Shown one piece after another: positions 4,521-14,846 of a stretch of 14,852 bases of DNA (position 1 is its first letter; every line of letters starts with the position of its first letter). Under the pieces are notes generated by a model, which did not search any database, was not told the origin of the DNA, and worked only from the letters and a program-made list of their open reading frames with translations. This stretch comes from Lachnospiraceae bacterium (GTDB taxonomy: Bacteria > Bacillota_A > Clostridia > Lachnospirales > Lachnospiraceae): contig QXWX01000135.1 in NCBI GenBank assembly GCA_009911175.1, positions 1-14,852 on the forward strand. Reading direction: 5' to 3'. A program made the position numbers and the translations under genes.

Positions 4521-4626
4521 TGACCCATCACAGGAAAACAGCGGCGAGTGCAGAAAGCCTGTCTGCGGGAAGCTACCCGGGGAAATCGCACAGTCCGCGT
4601 GAAAAATCAGGAAGAGAGGTAAGAAA

Positions 4627-6006
4627 ATGGAAAAGATGCACAAGACTACATTTGCTGAAAAGCTGGGTTACGGACTGGGGGAACTGCCGGGGACAATGAA
4701 TGCCATCCTGGGAGCGGTCCTGACCATGTTTTACACGGACAGCGTAGGTCTGGCGGCGGGGATGGTCGGAACGATGTTTTTTATCTCCCGTTTATTTGAC
4801 GGGATCTCCGACCTGCTTGCGGGAAGCCTGATCGACCGGACGAGGACCAGGTGGGGGAAGGCAAGACCCTGGCTGCTATGGATGAGCGTGCCAACAGGTC
4901 TGGCACTGGCACTGATCTTCTGGATTCCGGCAAATGGATCCGACACCATGAAGATGATCTATGCATTTGTGACATACAACCTGTTTATATCCGTCTTATA
5001 TACGATCGTAGGCGTGGCGAAAAATGCGCTGATGCCGCTGATGACACAGGACGGTCCAAGCCGTGGCGCGCTGGCAAGATATTCCCTGATCTTTGGTCTG
5101 GGCGGTACGATCCTTGGAATATCCGTGACCTTTCCGTTTTTGTTTGCATTGGGCGGAGACCTGAAAGCATGGAGGACGATCTTCATCGTTTACGGTATCA
5201 TTACGACGGTTGGGCTTCTGCTCTCCTTTGCCCTGACAAAAGAGCATGTGCAGTCTGTTGAATCGGCTGCGAAAAAAGAGGAGAACATGTCGCTTGTAGA
5301 AAGCGTTAAGAACTTTGTACAGAATAAATATTTTATCTTTGCACTTGCAATGACCGTTTTCGTAAACTTTGCGGTACAGATCAATTCCGGTTCGCAGACC
5401 TATTTTTACACCTATGTAATGAATGATGTGATGTTGACCACATCGCTGAATATGGTGAACCTGATCCCGACGATCCTTGGCATCATGTTCCTATCCGGCC
5501 TTTCTCTGAAATTCTTTGGAAAGAAGAAAAGCATTTACATCGGAGCGACAGGGCAGATCCTTGGAAATATCCTGCGCGGGATCGCCGCACTGACAGCGAA
5601 TGTACCGGTGCTTGCAGTGGGAACCGTGATCAGTGCGCTTGCAACCGGCCCCCTGTCCGTACCGATCAACACACTGGTGGCGGATGCGGTGGATTACGGC
5701 GAATATCTGACCAACAAGCGGATAGAGGGAATGGGCTCAGCAATCGTTTCTTTTTCTCAGAAGATCAGCAACGGACTGGCGGCAGGCATGGTGGGATGGA
5801 TCCTCGCACTGACTGGCTACGTTGCAAATGAAGCGCAGAATTCCGCGACCGTTTTTGGGATTTCCTTCATGTTCGCATGGCTTCCGGTGATCCTGCTGGT
5901 GATCGTGATCCTCAGCTTTAAGGTCGTGTACAAATATGATGAAGAGGAAGCAGAGGTGCTGGCGGAATTAGCAAGAAGGAAAGAAGAGAATCGCAGTGAA
6001 AAGTAA
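4627..6006 (+). CDS. GPH-family sugar:cation symporter (MFS)
   Basis: A 459-residue, roughly 12-helix membrane transporter of the glycoside-pentoside-hexuronide:cation symporter family, the group that includes MelB and XynB-like permeases. The N-terminal AEKLGYGLGELPGTMN stretch and DRTRTRWGKARPWLLW (70-85), the conserved loop between helices 2 and 3, are diagnostic. A second family block follows later, around DAVDYGEYLTNKRIEGM. It imports a glycoside or oligosaccharide with Na+ or H+; the substrate is presumably the product handled by the two GH43 enzymes. The start is supported by AGAGAGG ten bases upstream. It is the first gene of an operon with the GH43 gene at 6077. A second, inactivated copy lies at 13078-14175. 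Confidence 0.93.
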   Translation: MEKMHKTTFAEKLGYGLGELPGTMNAILGAVLTMFYTDSVGLAAGMVGTMFFISRLFDGISDLLAGSLIDRTRTRWGKARPWLLWMSVPTGLALALIFWIPANGSDTMKMIYAFVTYNLFISVLYTIVGVAKNALMPLMTQDGPSRGALARYSLIFGLGGTILGISVTFPFLFALGGDLKAWRTIFIVYGIITTVGLLLSFALTKEHVQSVESAAKKEENMSLVESVKNFVQNKYFIFALAMTVFVNFAVQINSGSQTYFYTYVMNDVMLTTSLNMVNLIPTILGIMFLSGLSLKFFGKKKSIYIGATGQILGNILRGIAALTANVPVLAVGTVISALATGPLSVPINTLVADAVDYGEYLTNKRIEGMGSAIVSFSQKISNGLAAGMVGWILALTGYVANEAQNSATVFGISFMFAWLPVILLVIVILSFKVVYKYDEEEAEVLAELARRKEENRSEK

Positions 6007-6032
6007 ATGAGGAATCTGTCAATTTTATATCA

Positions 6033-6056
6033 GGCATCTGGTTTCGGCCAGATGCT
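6033..6056 (+). promoter_or_regulatory. Intercistronic UUCG hairpin, copy 1
   Basis: Bases 33-42 and 47-56 of this stretch (6033-6042 with 6047-6056) form a 10-bp stem, including two G-T wobbles, capped by TTCG. It lies between symporter and GH43, just before the GAGGAGG ribosome binding site. The same structure is kept at 14246-14269 with compensating changes. No T-run follows, so processing, mRNA stability or partial attenuation is more likely than full termination. Confidence 0.65.
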
Positions 6057-6076
6057 GCTATACGAGGAGGACACTT

Positions 6077-7138
6077 ATGTATCATTCCATCACACCCGGC
6101 CGGGTCTGGCTTGACACCGACGGAAACCGGATTCAGGCACACGGGGGCAGTATCATAACGGTAGGGGACACATTTTACTGGTACGGAGAAAATAAGGAAA
6201 AGACGACCGGAAAGGATCACATCTGGCACTGGGGCGTGCGCTGTTATTCCTCCAAGGATCTGTACAATTGGAAAAATGAGGGGATCATCATTCCGCCGGA
6301 TCCGGAGGACACATCGTCGCCGCTCCATCCCGCAGCCATGATGGACCGACCCCACATCATTTACAATGAAAAAACAAAAAAATACACGGTATGGCTGAAA
6401 ATTATGGGAGAGACGCCCTGCTTTGCGGTGCTGACAGTAGATTCTATTTTAGGCCCCTATATGATGGTGAATCCGAGGCTGAACCCCTGCGGGCTGGAGG
6501 TCGGGGACTTCGATCTGCAGGTGGACCCGGAGACAAAGAAGGGCTATCTCATCAGCCAGAAATCTCATACCTGTATCTACGTGGCAGAGCTTAATGAGGA
6601 GTATACGGATACGACAGGAACCTATACGGAACATTTTCCGCATACGGCGCCGCCGGAGGCACGGGAAGCGCCTGTGCATTTTATCCGGAACGGACTGCAC
6701 TATCTCATTACGTCCGGTACGACCGGATATTACTCCAACCCGTCGGAGGCGGCAAAGGCGGCGGACTGGAACGGCCCTTATGAGATGTTGGGAGATCCCC
6801 ATGTGGATGACAGCTCGAAGACCTCCTTCAATTCCCAGATCACTTCTGTGTTCCGCCATCCGGGGAAGAAGGATCTGCATATCGCGCTGGCGGACCGTTG
6901 GAAGCCGGAGATCTGCCGGATGGAGGGCTACGCGACCGGGGAATATTCTGACCGGATCCAGGAAAAATTCCGTCGGATCTTTGACCCGGAAGTGGAATTT
7001 GTTTTTACGGAAGAGGATGCAAAGGATATGAAGATCAATTCGTCGGTCTCCGATTATGTATGGCTCCCGCTGAAATTCGACGGGGACCAGGTAAGGATCG
7101 AATGGCGGGATGAGTGGACGATTGAAGAGTATGAATAA
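6077..7138 (+). CDS. GH43-like enzyme, exo-beta-1,3-galactanase type (subfamily 24-like)
   Basis: 353 residues, a single beta-propeller without signal peptide. The opening LDTDGNRIQAHGGSI (12-26) followed by FYWYGENK (33-40) and the CYSSKDLYNWKNEGI segment is the hallmark of the GH43 subfamily 24 exo-beta-1,3-galactanase type. E197 in EAPVHF is the likely acid. E38 sits at the conserved substrate glutamate. The usual N-terminal base aspartate is missing; in characterised relatives a glutamine replaces it, here probably Q254 in FNSQIT. It would release galactose from imported beta-1,3-galactan or arabinogalactan fragments, but the substrate is inferred from family only. It starts 70 bases after the symporter gene, behind GAGGAGG, so it belongs to that operon. 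A broken copy lies at 14290-14846. Confidence 0.85.
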   Translation: MYHSITPGRVWLDTDGNRIQAHGGSIITVGDTFYWYGENKEKTTGKDHIWHWGVRCYSSKDLYNWKNEGIIIPPDPEDTSSPLHPAAMMDRPHIIYNEKTKKYTVWLKIMGETPCFAVLTVDSILGPYMMVNPRLNPCGLEVGDFDLQVDPETKKGYLISQKSHTCIYVAELNEEYTDTTGTYTEHFPHTAPPEAREAPVHFIRNGLHYLITSGTTGYYSNPSEAAKAADWNGPYEMLGDPHVDDSSKTSFNSQITSVFRHPGKKDLHIALADRWKPEICRMEGYATGEYSDRIQEKFRRIFDPEVEFVFTEEDAKDMKINSSVSDYVWLPLKFDGDQVRIEWRDEWTIEEYE

Positions 7139-7208
7139 ATGCACGGGACCGAAGCAATAACAAAAAAACAGCCTGTGCATGTGGCTGACTTGCAAAAAAC
7201 TGTTTCTA

Positions 7209-7277
7209 TCCCTTAAACTGACCAAGATACCCTTAAAAACATGCCGATTTTAAGGGAATCCTGGTCGGTTTAAGGGA
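7209..7277. repeat. Four-box TTTAAGGGA dyad downstream of the Fic gene
   Basis: Boxes start at 7209 (TCCCTTAAA), 7229 (ACCCTTAAA), 7249 and 7269 (both TTTAAGGGA), at intervals of exactly 20 bp. The first two are inverted relative to the last two, and the array is symmetric about 7243. The sequence between outer and inner boxes is also largely complementary, giving a stem of almost 30 bp. It lies between the convergent GH43 and Fic genes. It may act as a protein-binding array and perhaps also as a hairpin terminator, although no T-run adjoins it. Confidence 0.75.
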
Positions 7278-7296
7278 ATACTCACTCCAGAAGAAC

Positions 7297-8343
7297 TTAT
7301 TTCAACCGGATATAGAAGGTTGACTTCCCAACCCCTTCCCGCTTAAACTCACCGTTTTCCACCAATTTCCGCAGAGAGCCTTCAATGGAGCTTATGCTCA
7401 AAGACGGGCACAATTCCCGGATATCCTGCTTCGTAAATCTTCCGATCTTATACTCTGCCGCTTTTTTTACCATATCAATGGCCGGTAGCTTTTCCTCTAC
7501 GATCGAAAAACGATCCCCAAAATCTTTATAAGCCGCAAGGATCGTGCTGAGAATATATTTTATAAAAGGAATCACATCCTCGGTGCCTTCGTGCCAGCCA
7601 TCCTGCGACCGGCTCAGCGCGTCGTAGTACAGATCCTTGTCTTTCGCAATCTTTGCTTCCAGAGAGATATACTTTCCTACATAAAATCCGCTGCGGTATA
7701 AGAGCAGCGTAGTCAGCAGCCGGCTCATCCTTCCGTTGCCGTCGTTGAAGGGATGGATACACAGGAAATCATGGATGAATACCGGTATGGCGATCAACGG
7801 TTCCAGCTCAAAATTCCCGATTACCTTGTTGTACTCTTCGCAGATCTTATCCAGCGCCTCCGGAGTCTCGTATGGGGCAAGGGGCGTGAACAAGATCTCC
7901 GAATGCCCGTCAGGATAGCTTGCGCTGATATAATTCTGGACATTTTTCGTCTGTCCTGCCAGGGGATTATTCATGTGGCTGTACATGATCTTATGCAGCT
8001 GGAGGATATAATTTTTCGTGATCGGAATGGCATCGAAGCTTTCGTGGATGATATTCAGGACATCACGGTAGCCGGCGATCTCCTGTTCATCACGGTTCTT
8101 CGGAGCGGTCCGCTCCTCCACAAGCTGCCGGATACGCGTATTGGTAGTAATAATGCCCTCAATCGCGTTGGAAGCCTTGGTGCTCTGAATCTTCGCGACC
8201 TCCACCAGCTTTTCAAGCTCCTTGGGCCGTTGCTTCAGGTATTGCTCCTGCTTTCCGGCTTCCCGGTAGATGGCCGCGATATATCCAAGTATGTCAGAAT
8301 CCCATTTTTGGTCTTTGATCAATGAATAATTGAACATCCTCAT
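7297..8343 (-). CDS. Fic family AMP-transferase with N-terminal inhibitory helix and C-terminal wHTH
   Basis: About 348 residues. The Fic active site HPFNDGNGRMSR is complete, with the catalytic histidine first. Upstream, SNAIEG matches the inhibitory-helix motif (S/T)xxxE(G/N), making this a class II, self-restrained Fic protein whose glutamate blocks ATP until relieved. The family moves AMP from ATP onto protein hydroxyls; the target is unknown. The last 70 residues (FTKQDIRELCPSLSISSIEGSLRKLVENG) look like a winged helix. Start choice is uncertain: the frame is open from GTG 8355, only a base or two after GGAG, so the ATG at 8343 or 8337 behind AAGGGA is preferred. Single-gene unit. TTTAAGGGA arrays flank both ends, so self-control through the wHTH is plausible. 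Confidence 0.9.
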   Translation of the reverse strand: MRMFNYSLIKDQKWDSDILGYIAAIYREAGKQEQYLKQRPKELEKLVEVAKIQSTKASNAIEGIITTNTRIRQLVEERTAPKNRDEQEIAGYRDVLNIIHESFDAIPITKNYILQLHKIMYSHMNNPLAGQTKNVQNYISASYPDGHSEILFTPLAPYETPEALDKICEEYNKVIGNFELEPLIAIPVFIHDFLCIHPFNDGNGRMSRLLTTLLLYRSGFYVGKYISLEAKIAKDKDLYYDALSRSQDGWHEGTEDVIPFIKYILSTILAAYKDFGDRFSIVEEKLPAIDMVKKAAEYKIGRFTKQDIRELCPSLSISSIEGSLRKLVENGEFKREGVGKSTFYIRLK

Positions 8344-8423
8344 TCCCTTATTCACACTCCTTTCCCTTAAAATATAGCATAATTTAAGGGAAAGTTCAAT
8401 GGATAAGTGTATTTTCCCTTATT
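8344..8423. promoter_or_regulatory. TTTAAGGGA box array in the Fic promoter/start region
   Basis: TCCCTTATT (8344-8352) and TCCCTTAAA (8363-8371) face TTTAAGGGA (8383-8391) and a weak GATAAGTGT (8402-8410). Intervals are 19, 20 and 19 bp and the centre is 8377, the same geometry as the array at 7209-7277. A further TCCCTTATT lies at 8415-8423. The first box touches the likely start codon and the second the AAAGGAG site, so a bound protein would block expression. Confidence 0.65.
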
Positions 8424-8495: not shown

Positions 8496-8999
8496 TCAGT
8501 TTGCACCGATAGAGGGAAGAGTATACCTAAGGACACCTCGAAGGAAATGAAATTCATCTGCGGCCTCATTTTCCTTAATCCTCCCGAACCCCAGATGCTC
8601 CCGGACCACCCGGAAGATGAGATAATCAGCCCCGGTCCCCGCCGTAACCGACAGTGCCAGCGTAAATACAAAATACCAGATCCCCTCCCATGTGATCAGA
8701 TCCCGCACCTGCCTTCCGGATGCCCCGACCGCTTTCATTGCGGCAAATTCCCTCTGCCTGTCCAGGATGCTTACGCTCATGGTATTGATAAAATTCAGGA
8801 TCCCCACCGTGAACAGCACCACCGTAAGAAATGCGGACAGCTTCGACAGCGAGCTCTTCGCCTCCTCCAGCGATCTTGCCAGCTCAACCTTTGAAGTCCT
8901 GAATATGGCTGGGATGCCGTCGGTCAGTTCGACCACCTGCTCCAATACGCTTTCCTCATACTCGGACGGCCCGTCAAGCTGAATGGAATATTGTATTTA
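8496..8999 (-). pseudogene. Truncated FtsX/MacB-type ABC permease remnant
   Basis: The open frame reads from just after a TAA at 8999-8997 and has no convincing start; the only early starts are TTG-type. The protein shows the C-terminal half of a MacB/FtsX-type permease: a bit of extracellular domain (QLDGPSEYEESVLEQVVE), a membrane helix LSAFLTVVLFTVGILNFINT, then the very typical DRQREFAAMKAVGASGRQVRDLI loop and another helix. The N-terminal helix and most of the periplasm-like domain are missing, and the last helix is replaced by a short unrelated tail after FHF. It is therefore broken at both ends and presumably inactive. No partner ATPase is adjacent, and it is GC-richer than the ABC operon that abuts it at about 9000. 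Confidence 0.7.
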
Positions 9000-10762: not shown

Positions 10763-12067
10763 TTATTGATAAAAAAGCATGATGCTTACAGTAAACATAT
10801 TCTTGTTATATTCATGCTCCATTGTTCCGTAATATTTTTCTACTGCTAATCTGACATTTTTCATTCCCCATCCATGATGCCTTTTATCTGTCTTGGATGT
10901 TTTAAAATTTCCTTTGCTGATTATCGGTTCTTCTATACAGCTATTCGCAATTTGTATAATAATGAATTGGTTAATACGCCGGATTGTTACGGAAAGTATT
11001 TTTGCGGATGCTTCCGGCAGCTTTCTACACGCTTCCATTGCATTATCCAGAAGATTTGTCAAGATTGTGCATAAATCAACCGGGTCTATCTTACAGTCTT
11101 TTGGATATTCCGCATGAATACTTGTTTCTATATTCTGCTGTCTTGCAAGTTCGGCTTTCTGGCTCAAAATATAATCAACAGCCTCAATGCCTGTAAACCG
11201 TTCTACAGAATAAGCAGCCCTGTCTTTGCCGAGCCTGTCAAGATATGCCCTTGCTTCCTCAACCTTACCGTCTGCCAGATAGCTTTGAATCATGGAAAAA
11301 TGATTTTCCATATCATGATACAAGCGGGCATTTGATTCATAAGATTCTTTCGCAACTTGATAATTCTTTGCTAGCAGCTCATTTTGCAGAGCAATACTTT
11401 CCTGTTCTTTCCGTATCTGGCATAAACGATAATAGAAATAAGCCGAACAGATAATAAAGACAAACGCCAGTGCTAAAATTGCCTGGAACAAATCCGCCTT
11501 AAAATTTGTTACGATATTTGTTGACATCCAATAAGTTGCGCTGACAAATCCTAATACAGCTCCCGCCAATGCAATTCGGACTTTCCCCAACTGTACTGTT
11601 GCCCTTTTTAATATAAAATGGACAATCCATATAATAAGCCCATCTACCAGTTTAAATAAGATAACCAAATATAAGCGCATTGTGCTGAAACCAGCTTGAA
11701 GTTGTGCTGAAACCGCATAGCCAGTAATATCCTCTATGAATCTTAAAATGGAACCTTCCACAAAATTCAGTCCTGTAAGATAAACCACCGCCACAAAAAG
11801 AAAACTAAAATAATTTCCCTTAAACAGTATACATGCACCAAATGAATATGCAAAAGCACCATAAACAATCGTTACGAGACTAAATGAAATATCTATAAAA
11901 TTCAACAAAATTACTCCAACAGTAATAATGTTTGCAACTGCCAAAAACATAATAATCTGCTTTTTCTTTTTGAACTGTGTTGGTGCTAACACATGAATAA
12001 TTGAAAAATAAAAAAACGATTCAACGAATGTTACCAGCCATTCCACACATATTTGAATGCCAATCAT
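10763..12067 (-). CDS. GHKL sensor histidine kinase (AgrC-like)
   Basis: 434 residues. The first 215 form about six membrane helices, the sensor arrangement of AgrC/ComD/VirS-like kinases that detect peptides. LYHDMENHF (249-257) contains the likely phosphorylated H251. A GHKL ATPase follows: N-box TNLLDNAMEAC (337-347) and G-box HHGWGMKNV (397-405). The ATG at 12067 is preferred over an upstream TTG because GGAGGA lies seven bases before it and because it overlaps the regulator's stop as ATGA, meaning tight translational coupling. It should sense an external ligand and phosphorylate the LytTR regulator. The adjacent exporter genes suggest the ligand is a peptide or antibiotic, but none is encoded recognisably here, except possibly the 26-residue peptide. 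Confidence 0.92.
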   Translation of the reverse strand: MIGIQICVEWLVTFVESFFYFSIIHVLAPTQFKKKKQIIMFLAVANIITVGVILLNFIDISFSLVTIVYGAFAYSFGACILFKGNYFSFLFVAVVYLTGLNFVEGSILRFIEDITGYAVSAQLQAGFSTMRLYLVILFKLVDGLIIWIVHFILKRATVQLGKVRIALAGAVLGFVSATYWMSTNIVTNFKADLFQAILALAFVFIICSAYFYYRLCQIRKEQESIALQNELLAKNYQVAKESYESNARLYHDMENHFSMIQSYLADGKVEEARAYLDRLGKDRAAYSVERFTGIEAVDYILSQKAELARQQNIETSIHAEYPKDCKIDPVDLCTILTNLLDNAMEACRKLPEASAKILSVTIRRINQFIIIQIANSCIEEPIISKGNFKTSKTDKRHHGWGMKNVRLAVEKYYGTMEHEYNKNMFTVSIMLFYQ

Positions 12068-13042: not shown

Positions 13043-13077
13043 AGTCTGCGTGAAAAATCAGGAAGAGAGGTAAAAAA

Positions 13078-14175
13078 ATGAAAAAGATGCACAAGGCGAC
13101 ATTAGCCGAGAAACTCCATCCTGGGGGCGGTACTGACTATGTTTTATACAGACAGCGTAGGACTGGCAGCAGGCATGGTAGGGACAATGTTTTTTAGCTC
13201 ACATTTGTTTGATGGTATTTCCGACCTGCTTGCGGGAAGCCTGATCGACAGGACCAGGACAAAATGGGGGAAAGCAAGGCCCTGGCTGTTATGGATGAGC
13301 GTACCAACAGGGCTGACCCTGGCATTGATCTTCTGGATTCCGGCAAATGGGTCCGAGTTTACGGTATCATTACTACGATTGGGCTTCTGCTCTCCTTTGC
13401 TCTGACAAAAGGGCATGTACAATCCGTGGAATCTGTTACAAAAAAAGATGAAAATATGACGTTTGCGGAAAGTGTTAAGAACTTTGTACAGAATAAATAT
13501 TTTATCTTCGCCCTTGCAATGACAGTGTTTGTCAACTTTGCGGTGCAGATCAATTCCGGTTCACAGACCTATTTTTACACTTATGTTATGAATGATGTGA
13601 TGCTGACCACCTCGCTGAACATGGTCAATCTGATTCCAACGATCCTTGGTATCATGTTCCTGTCCGGCCTTTCCCTGAAGTTTTTTGGAAAGAAGAAAAG
13701 CATCTACATTGGGGCAACAGGGCAGATCATAGGAAATATCCTGCGGGGGATCGCGGCGCTGACAGCGAATGTACCGGTGCTCGCGGCGGGAACTGTGATC
13801 AGCGCGCTGGCAACAGGTCCTTTGTCCGTGCCCATCAATACGCTGGCGGCGGACGCGGTAGACTACGGCGAGTATCTGACCAACAAGCGGATTGAAGGAA
13901 TGGGATCCGCCATCGTTTCCTTTTCCCAGAAGATCAGTAACGGTCTGGCGGCAGGCATGGTAGGCTGGATCCTGGCCCTGACCGGCTATGTGGCAAACGG
14001 AGTACAGAATTCCGCTACGATCTTTGGGATTTCCTTCATGTTCGCATGGCTTCTGGTGATCCTGCTTGTGATCGTGATCCTCAGCTTTAAGCTTGTGTAC
14101 AAATATGACGAGGAAGAACAGGAAGTCCTGGCAGAGCTGGCAAGAAGGAAAGAAGAAAGCAGCAGCGAAAAGTAA
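13078..14175 (+). pseudogene. Inactivated second copy of the GPH symporter
   Basis: Closely matches the symporter at 4627-6006 from about 13043 (the leader AGTCTGCGTG...) to the stop. Two deletions break it. About 38 bases are missing after codon 13 (matching 4666-4703; junction at 13116/13117). About 244 bases are missing at 13356/13357 (matching 4944-5187), removing roughly 81 residues, or about three helices. The first shifts the frame into a TAG at 13196-13198. The sum, 282, restores the original frame, so the distal part stays open to 14175. Most differences from the intact copy are silent third-position changes, so the copies diverged under selection before this one died. The upstream AraC operator and promoter are absent. 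Confidence 0.88.
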
Positions 14176-14245
14176 ATGAGAAAGCTGCGTAAACAGCGAA
14201 TCGTCTGCTGTTCTCAATCACTGTGAACCTGTCAATTTTATATCA

Positions 14246-14269
14246 GGCATCTGGCTTCGGCCGGGTGCC
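14246..14269 (+). promoter_or_regulatory. Intercistronic UUCG hairpin, copy 2
   Basis: A 10-bp stem (14246-14255 with 14260-14269) capped by TTCG, equivalent to 6033-6056. Several positions differ between the copies, yet all ten pairs are kept, for example T-G becoming C-G at the closing pair and G-T becoming G-C at the base. Confidence 0.65.
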
Positions 14270-14289
14270 ATTATACGAGGAGGAAGCTT

Positions 14290-14772
14290 ATGTACCATTC
14301 AATCACACCCGGCCGGATCTGGCTTGACACCGACGGAAACCGGATCCAGGCACACGGGGGCAGTATCATAACGGTAGGGGACACATTTTACTGGTACGGA
14401 GAGAATAAGGAAAAGACAACGGGAAAGGATAATATCTGGCACTGGGGCGTGTGTTGCTATTCCTCAAAGGATCTGTATAACTGGAAAAGCGAGGGGATCA
14501 TCATCCCGCCGGATACCAGGGATGAGTCGTCCCCGCTTCACCCTTCGGCCATGATGGATCGTCCCCACATCATTTATAATGAAAGGACAAAAAAAATATG
14601 CGGCATGGCTGAAGATCATGGGGGAACCGCCGTGCTTCGCGGTGCTGACGGCAGATTCGATCCTGGGGCCTTATGAAATGGTGAACCCGAAAGTAAATCT
14701 GCCAGATGGAAGGATATGAAACAGGAGCGTATTCCGACAGGATCCAGGAAAAATTCAGGCGGATCTTTGACC
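14290..14772 (+). pseudogene. Inactivated second copy of the GH43 subfamily-24-like gene
   Basis: Begins like the gene at 6077 (MYHSITPGRIWLDTDGNR) behind its own GAGGAGG site and is nearly identical for about 100 residues. A run of eight A after GGAC (seven in the intact gene) then shifts the frame near 14590. Beyond VNPKVN (about 14696) some 428 bases are missing, and the sequence resumes at the match to 6911, near CRMEGYATGEYSDRIQEK. The acid glutamate and the candidate base glutamine both fall in the deleted part, so no active enzyme can be made. Homology to the intact gene ends at 14772 after RRIFDP. Confidence 0.88.
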
Positions 14773-14846
14773 CAAAGATAGAAGGAATACACATGTATGC
14801 CAATGGCTATCAAGTAGTGTTGGACAATCTGAAAGCATATTTGTAA
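14773..14846 (+). pseudogene. C-terminal tail resembling an SGNH/GDSL esterase, fused in frame
   Basis: After RRIFDP the frame continues KIEGIHMYANGYQVVLDNL to a TAA at 14844-14846. The pattern GIHxxxxGYxxxxxxLxxYL is typical of the end of SGNH/GDSL hydrolases (block V, D-x-x-H), here with E in place of D. I infer that an esterase gene once followed GH43 and that a deletion joined the two. The identification rests on about 22 residues. Confidence 0.4.

Follow-up and report, generated by a model that had tools for sequence, protein, structure and literature searches.

Background

Nearly nothing is known of the functions of class II Fic proteins, or of how their activity is controlled, according to the available parts of PMC9755527. 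Among the matches listed by a literature search for such box arrays at fic genes, the sources being accessible in part, the only close cases were CccR and CbFic2. In Yersinia pseudotuberculosis, CccR (PDB 7XUX) uses its HTH domain to repress its own promoter, as established by footprint, gel shift and a promoter mutant; its operator is a single pair of 10-bp boxes placed 26 bp apart, and the protein is also an effector secreted by the T6SS (PMC9755527). An array after the stop codon is not mentioned in the available parts of that paper. CbFic2 of Coxiella burnetii (PDB 8CIL) forms a dimer through its N-terminal domain and its AMPylation is stimulated by DNA binding; it was tested with random DNA and has a host histone target, while the available parts of the paper give no specific site (PMC10628234).

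The present study concerns a fic gene within a 14,852-nucleotide stretch of Lachnospiraceae DNA, the whole of which is referred to as the window. Its predicted product resembles CccR in being a class II Fic protein with a C-terminal HTH and inverted repeats near the -35/-10 region (PMC9755527), although CccR and the model of the window protein share only about 20% identity, and the putative window operator differs from that of CccR in having four boxes of 7–9 bp with an inner spacer of 15 bp. The combination of a class II Fic domain with a C-terminal wHTH is likewise that of CbFic2 (PMC10628234). The SoFic (Sofic) anti-phage family is comparable in its Fic domain and its size; Sofic works as a dimer and has a small antitoxin gene, AS1, downstream (PMC12249575, available in part), whereas in the window family it is boxes that often lie past the stop codon. 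Annotated fic neighbours differed among the database records examined. Finally, a Fic protein of Bordetella bronchiseptica (PDB 8UQU) is close in fold, at 35–36% identity; the title of that entry refers to the N-terminal domain only, and a literature search under the code 8UQU found no paper.

The fic gene and its product

The fic gene occupies 7297–8343 on the minus strand and was taken from the list of open reading frames as encoding 348 aa, with its ATG at 8341–8343; a GTG located 12 bases upstream of this ATG is a possible alternative start. The protein contains a Fic domain (Pfam, E = 1.9e-17). The catalytic motif HPFNDGNGRMSR was located at residues 197–208, preceded by S58-xxx-E62-G63, which conforms to the (S/T)xxxE(G/N) pattern of the inhibitory helix; the columns of the former and residues S58, E62 and G63 of the latter were invariant in the same alignment of 33 sequences. 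With catalytic motif and N-terminal inhibitory motif both invariant, the protein was assigned by sequence to class II.

An AlphaFold2 model (mean pLDDT 85.8) placed a winged helix at the C-terminus, as in CccR, comprising helices at residues 288–297, 305–311 and 317–329, the last being the third helix, and wing strands at 333–336 and 343–346. The claim of a first-pass annotation that this Fic protein carries a winged-helix domain of its own therefore held in the model. The closest solved structure by sequence was 8UQU (4.1e-71), which was also the best match in structural comparison, with SoFic, CbFic2 and CccR among the next. PADLOC matched the protein to SoFic (PDLC03963, E = 1.4e-39); against the SoFic equivalog NCBIfam NF046030 it scored 62.1 bits, where the cut-off is 550. 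The PHROGs match was to a family of unknown function (8.6e-81). No Fic match of at least 60% identity was found among plasmid records, 399 of which fell below that value.

Arrays at both ends of fic

The downstream array (7209–7277) begins about 20 bp past the fic stop codon and contains boxes at 7209 and 7229 on the minus strand and at 7249 and 7269 on the plus strand. All four had been proposed in the first-pass annotation and all were recovered, those at 7209, 7249 and 7269 being exact and that at 7229 having one mismatch. The upstream array contains two exact copies of TTTAAGGGA, both conserved: an inner box on the minus strand (8363–8371) that touches the -10 hexamer, and an inner box on the plus strand (8383–8391) between -35 and -10. 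These are flanked by an outer box directly before the ATG (8344–8352, minus strand; position +30 in the ortholog layout), which retains the 7-letter core TAAGGGA exactly and differs in its two leading letters, and by a weak outer box (8402–8410, plus strand), which has two mismatches in the core and stands at the expected fourth place; since the ortholog layout count allowed one mismatch, this box was unscored there. In the general layout, successive boxes are 20, 22 and 20 bp apart, or about two helical turns. The annotation had named these four upstream boxes correctly and had missed a further one (8415–8423, minus strand; -41 in the window row of the ortholog layout), which occupies the position where many orthologs have a second, distal array upstream. 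Box number in the window was within chance, with eight at up to one mismatch against a shuffle mean of 4.67 (22 of 200 shuffles reached eight); the layout of the arrays, unlike this count, exceeds chance. A lone exact TTTAAGGGA was also present at 11816–11824, within a histidine-kinase-like gene (named by eye).

A sigma-70-like promoter was recognised by consensus match on the minus strand at 8371–8399 (TTGAAC-17-TATATT, with TG before the -10); the region contained three such consensus sites against a shuffle mean of 1.7 (sd 1.3), which is weak evidence alone. The upstream array covers the -35/-10 region of fic so defined, and thus its inverted repeats, like those of CccR, overlap the gene's own putative promoter. 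Among close homologs, 71 of 80 upstream dyads and none of 27 downstream dyads had TTGA before their left box, from which it follows that the downstream array does not serve as a promoter operator in the way the upstream one would; the use of the downstream array as operator of a neighbour's promoter was not favoured for the same reason. A TATAAT match of at least five letters discriminated less well (69/80 upstream, 17/27 downstream).

Conservation among orthologs

Conservation was assessed, without choice by box, in 101 nonredundant orthologs whose Fic domains were at least 75% identical and for which 60 bases upstream were available. The inner promoter pair was present in 93, and the downstream dyad in 35. 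In eight, therefore, no inner pair was found at one mismatch, though L130 is among them only through a start set too far downstream; in L041, with 54 bases upstream available, no boxes were seen by eye. Two sets drawn from these, of 98 and 99 orthologs, were chosen by box class, that is, for having a box near the promoter. In the first of these, 92 had the inner pair, 79 had at least three of the four boxes and 17 had all four, while a second upstream array, 53 bp farther out, retained both inner boxes in 44 cases and at least one of them in 67. The downstream dyad occurred in 35 of the 99, against a shuffled rate of zero. The 7-letter cores were centred at -31 and -11 (minus strand) and at +11 and +30/31 (plus strand) from one centre, with a mean of 0.17 matches at positions outside these peaks, the peaks being left out of the mean. 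When dyads with up to two mismatches and spacers of 13–17 bp were allowed, the inner spacer was 15 bp in all 80 upstream and all 27 downstream dyads found.

Some Fic match was present in 57 of 98 related genomes. Orthologs at 78–88% identity (the best 80 of 588 relatives) came from records spanning many genera, including Faecalibacterium, Megasphaera, Ruminobacter and Mailhella (loci L035, L068, L075 and L081), and the promoter dyad was present at these four loci. The first-pass annotation had described four-box dyads on both flanks of the gene, and these exist in the window. Its view of the arrangement as unusual fails if this means peculiar to this gene or to the Lachnospiraceae, given the records of other genera, and the matching of arrays at both ends, while true of the window, extends through the downstream dyad to about a third of orthologs only (35/101).

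Association of the arrays with fic

Six genomes contained seven exact dyad sites, distributed among five of the six, and all seven were at fic. A search of 299 genomes of the family found the dyad in 17, against a single match for the reversed pattern. Sixteen of the 17 had it at fic: in 14 it lay beside a Fic match, in one beside a fic gene cut by the contig end, and in one as a remnant, judged by eye to be a leftover downstream array. The dyad without Fic, in G190, was a terminator-like hairpin beside an HTH gene. The annotation had proposed arrays tied to fic, to be abandoned if identical copies were scattered away from such genes; no such scatter was found in the 6 and 299 genomes, and a dispersed repeat was accordingly rejected.

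Viral contigs contained 11 dyad-matching stretches, of which six were at fic and five (L183, L186, L188, L189 and L191) had no Fic match. By eye, there were three boxes in each of L188 and L191 and two in L186, while L183 and L189 looked like chance. The site in L186 (6420–6450) lies between terL and portal, that in L188 (3804) before a serine-recombinase-like operon, and that in L191 (3950) before a ParB-like/DNA-methylase-like gene (all names by eye). The three sites may be leftover arrays or targets in trans.

Properties of the downstream array

Downstream arrays were matched against the box of their own promoter, requiring at least two own boxes, and against foreign boxes as a control. In the AAGGG class, 44 of 99 loci had an own-box match where the control gave 5.4; the values were 3 of 5 against 0.3 for the TGGAYG class, and 5 of 28 against 1.1 for the TGCA class, where two were convincing by eye. 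The downstream array of L076 also matched its own box. One of three loci in the ATGATGGAG class had a match, which was counted as not convincing, and no downstream array was found in the TAGGNG (0/12), TGGGNG (0/6), GACGAG (0/6) or ATGGC (0/4) classes, nor in any of the remaining ones. The spacers of the two arrays at one locus were no more alike (0.342) than shuffled pairs (0.352, sd 0.019; 27 loci). With a downstream spacer unrelated to the upstream one, it appears that the boxes owe their retention to something that reads them. There was no sign of gene conversion between the two arrays, the spacers being unlike across these 27 loci.

As RNA, the downstream array of the window folds into a long stem-loop (-41.7 kcal/mol, z = -6.3), which none of 200 shuffles equalled. 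Across loci, the flanks of downstream dyads paired in 84 of 162 cases against 60.6 when shuffled (sd 5.7; 0/2000), and no excess was seen for upstream dyads (196/480 against 202.7). By eye, this pairing came from a subset (the window, L001–L004, L049, L070 and L098), while L035, L046 and L110 kept their boxes without pairing flanks. In several loci a separate terminator-like hairpin was seen by eye to follow the array; in the window, a possible hairpin with a T run lies beyond the array at 7162–7187 (minus strand), noted by eye and not reported by the terminator scan.

Box letters and protein lineage

The homologs that had a start and 60 bases upstream numbered 271; removal of redundancy left 198, and a box class was assigned to 172 of these, 146 by regular expressions and 26 by hand; the other 26 were left out of the class tests. 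As grouped here, the 172 fell into 13 classes, several having one to three members. Below 75% identity, an inverted repeat with other letters preceded the gene in 42 of 76 clusters (at least 8 of 9 pairs, a 13–17 bp spacer and at least three G/C; shuffles gave a mean of 1.1 and a maximum of 4), while 24 of the 76 cluster representatives had no assigned class. Box letters varied with lineage and included TAGGCG/TAGGAG, TGGACG, TGGGAG, TGACGAG, TAAGCGAT, ATGGC and TATGCAGA, among others.

At matched Fic-domain identity, recognition-helix residues were shared more often by same-box than by different-box pairs in every bin compared. In the 60–65% bin, the values for the helix were 0.66 and 0.47, while those for the Fic core were both 0.67; across bins, the core differed by at most 0.05 in either direction. 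Among 46 cluster representatives, the class effect was 0.188 for the recognition helix, 0.068 for the wing, 0.069 for helix 1 and 0.021 for the Fic core, and none of 500 label shuffles reached any of these; the effect for the recognition helix was thus roughly ninefold that for the core, even if the small core effect was itself beyond all 500 shuffles. Replacement of the whole DNA-binding domain was not favoured as the cause of box change, the helix 2 effect being 0.035 (reached by 29 of 500 shuffles), although that of helix 1 was 0.069 (0/500). The sequence pairs in these tests were not independent, and the classes nearly followed the tree (14 changes for 13 classes), so that the pair tests rest on few independent events. 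In a column-by-column covariation test the helix did not stand out (3 of the top 20 columns, P = 0.066), and in a first version of it most top columns were in the Fic domain.

One ortholog among the 100 labelled, L076, had switched its box. Its protein is 83% identical to the window Fic and its boxes read TGACGG, with four exact copies downstream and one exact and two near copies upstream, so that its promoter boxes fit this motif less well than its downstream boxes. Its identity was the lowest of the 100 both in the helix (0.65, mean 0.79) and in the wing (0.49, mean 0.69), while its Fic domain was ordinary (rank 84 of 100 from the lowest). R322, N339 and S340 of L076 were absent from the 99 other labelled orthologs. 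R322 occurred in all six proteins of the GACGAG class, whose box shares TGACG with L076, and also in all four ATGGC, three ATGATGGAG and two GATACY proteins; with R322 spread over other box classes too, residue and box are not linked by a simple code. Different-box pairs above 80% identity numbered 103, of which 99 involved L076 and thus represent one event. Taken as sequence patterns, boxes and Fic protein seem to have changed together in evolution.

Genomic setting

Phage-gene matches were sought at 118 fic loci; a terminase large subunit was found at 25, a portal protein at 20 and both at 16. The fic gene stood between the two in 15 of these 16, L173 being the exception, and several box classes were represented. 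In L034, L068, L145, L147, L162, L171, L174 and L176, fic was between terminase and portal on the same strand. A GCATCT...AGGTGCTTTT hairpin was often seen by eye to follow the terminase-portal fic genes. The fic gene could plausibly serve as a phage-borne defence or conversion gene.

The window fic is outside this terminase-portal place, with a glycoside-hydrolase-like gene on one side and an FtsX-like fragment on the other (names by eye). The latter, a C-terminal piece of an FtsX-like permease at 8496–8945 directly upstream of fic (by eye), is probably a truncated ABC transporter gene. Elsewhere in the window, 13043–14773 is a second, partly deleted copy of 4592–6987 (77–83% identical), carrying sugar-transporter-like and glycoside-hydrolase-like genes (names by eye). 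At L137, in G001, about 1.7 kb of extra DNA separates the hydrolase gene from the array's outer edge, and is absent both from the window and from the G007 stretch compared.

Discussion

This class II Fic protein most likely represses its own gene through its winged helix, bound to operators that flank the gene; we place the probability of this reading at about 0.85. Sequence comparison shows that the array is conserved, that it lies at the promoter, that it is nearly confined to fic, that its letters change with fic lineage and that, in one case, box and recognition helix changed together; binding, repression, the oligomer and the role of the downstream copy we infer. The window fic most likely works as CccR does, with a different operator made up of four boxes. 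Fic subunits, two or more of them joined as dimers or tetramers, would each set the C-terminal winged helix on one of these boxes, which follow one another at about two helical turns, and the oligomer, lying across the -35/-10 region, would shut off fic transcription. Where a matched array exists past the stop codon, the same protein would bind it also, adding a promoter loop, a roadblock to read-through, or both. Self-repression, as suggested by the first-pass annotation, gains support as the likely function from the ortholog arrays at the promoter and from the winged-helix model. A further reading, which we consider rather doubtful, is that the paired arrays would serve, beyond repression, as a platform regulating the enzyme: Fic oligomers bridging promoter and 3' array would form a closed loop holding the AMPylase silent, or in an inactive or de-AMPylating state, until some disturbance, such as phage replication or late transcription through fic, both derepressed and activated it.

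Among the alternatives, the strongest concerns the downstream array, which could act as RNA, as a stem-loop terminator or mRNA end, its likeness to the boxes being secondary. This is possible, although we think it the lesser likelihood: the strong fold in the window, which no shuffle equalled, and the excess pairing of downstream but not upstream flanks (84/162 against 60.6) are what it predicts, but the pairing is carried by a subset, L035, L046 and L110 keep the boxes without it, a distinct terminator-like hairpin follows the array in several loci (by eye), and the box letters switch with the protein class (L076, L008, L165, L304 and L305). The strong hairpin of the window, shared by some relatives, makes a terminator-like role a competitor of looping; the DNA-operator and RNA-hairpin readings may both be true.

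It appears improbable that the arrays mark the termini or remains of a mobile cassette in which Fic is a passenger or helper. The 78–88% identity of orthologs across many genera (best 80 of 588) would fit movement of this kind, as would the fic-less array between terL and portal in L186, the beginning of G008 homology to the window at 7206, near the outer edge of the downstream array, and the interruption of G001 homology between 7137 and 7206. At the other end, however, homology continues past the upstream array and reaches 8813 in G008; the alignment to G007 extends across the array, and arrays were not multiplied in the genomes searched. We consider it more improbable still that another host transcription factor binds the boxes and that fic is merely its target gene. 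The case for binding by this Fic itself is indirect, which leaves room for such a factor, but the same array is found at fic across many genera and almost never elsewhere in the genomes searched, and the box type follows the fic lineage and, in L076, also the helix and wing of that protein.

Judged from sequence, the features that set this family apart from CccR are the putative four-box operator and, in roughly one third of the orthologs, a further array beyond the stop codon. If the closed-loop reading were true, operator and recognition helix would together make up a code open to change, by which each mobile Fic stays private. The fic family is a large natural data set, with 13 box classes on nearly one geometry, a gene that is sometimes carried by phage and, in many cases, a matching array beyond the stop codon. 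It opens to direct test how wHTH-Fic proteins select their DNA and whether AMPylation activity is set by specific DNA binding.
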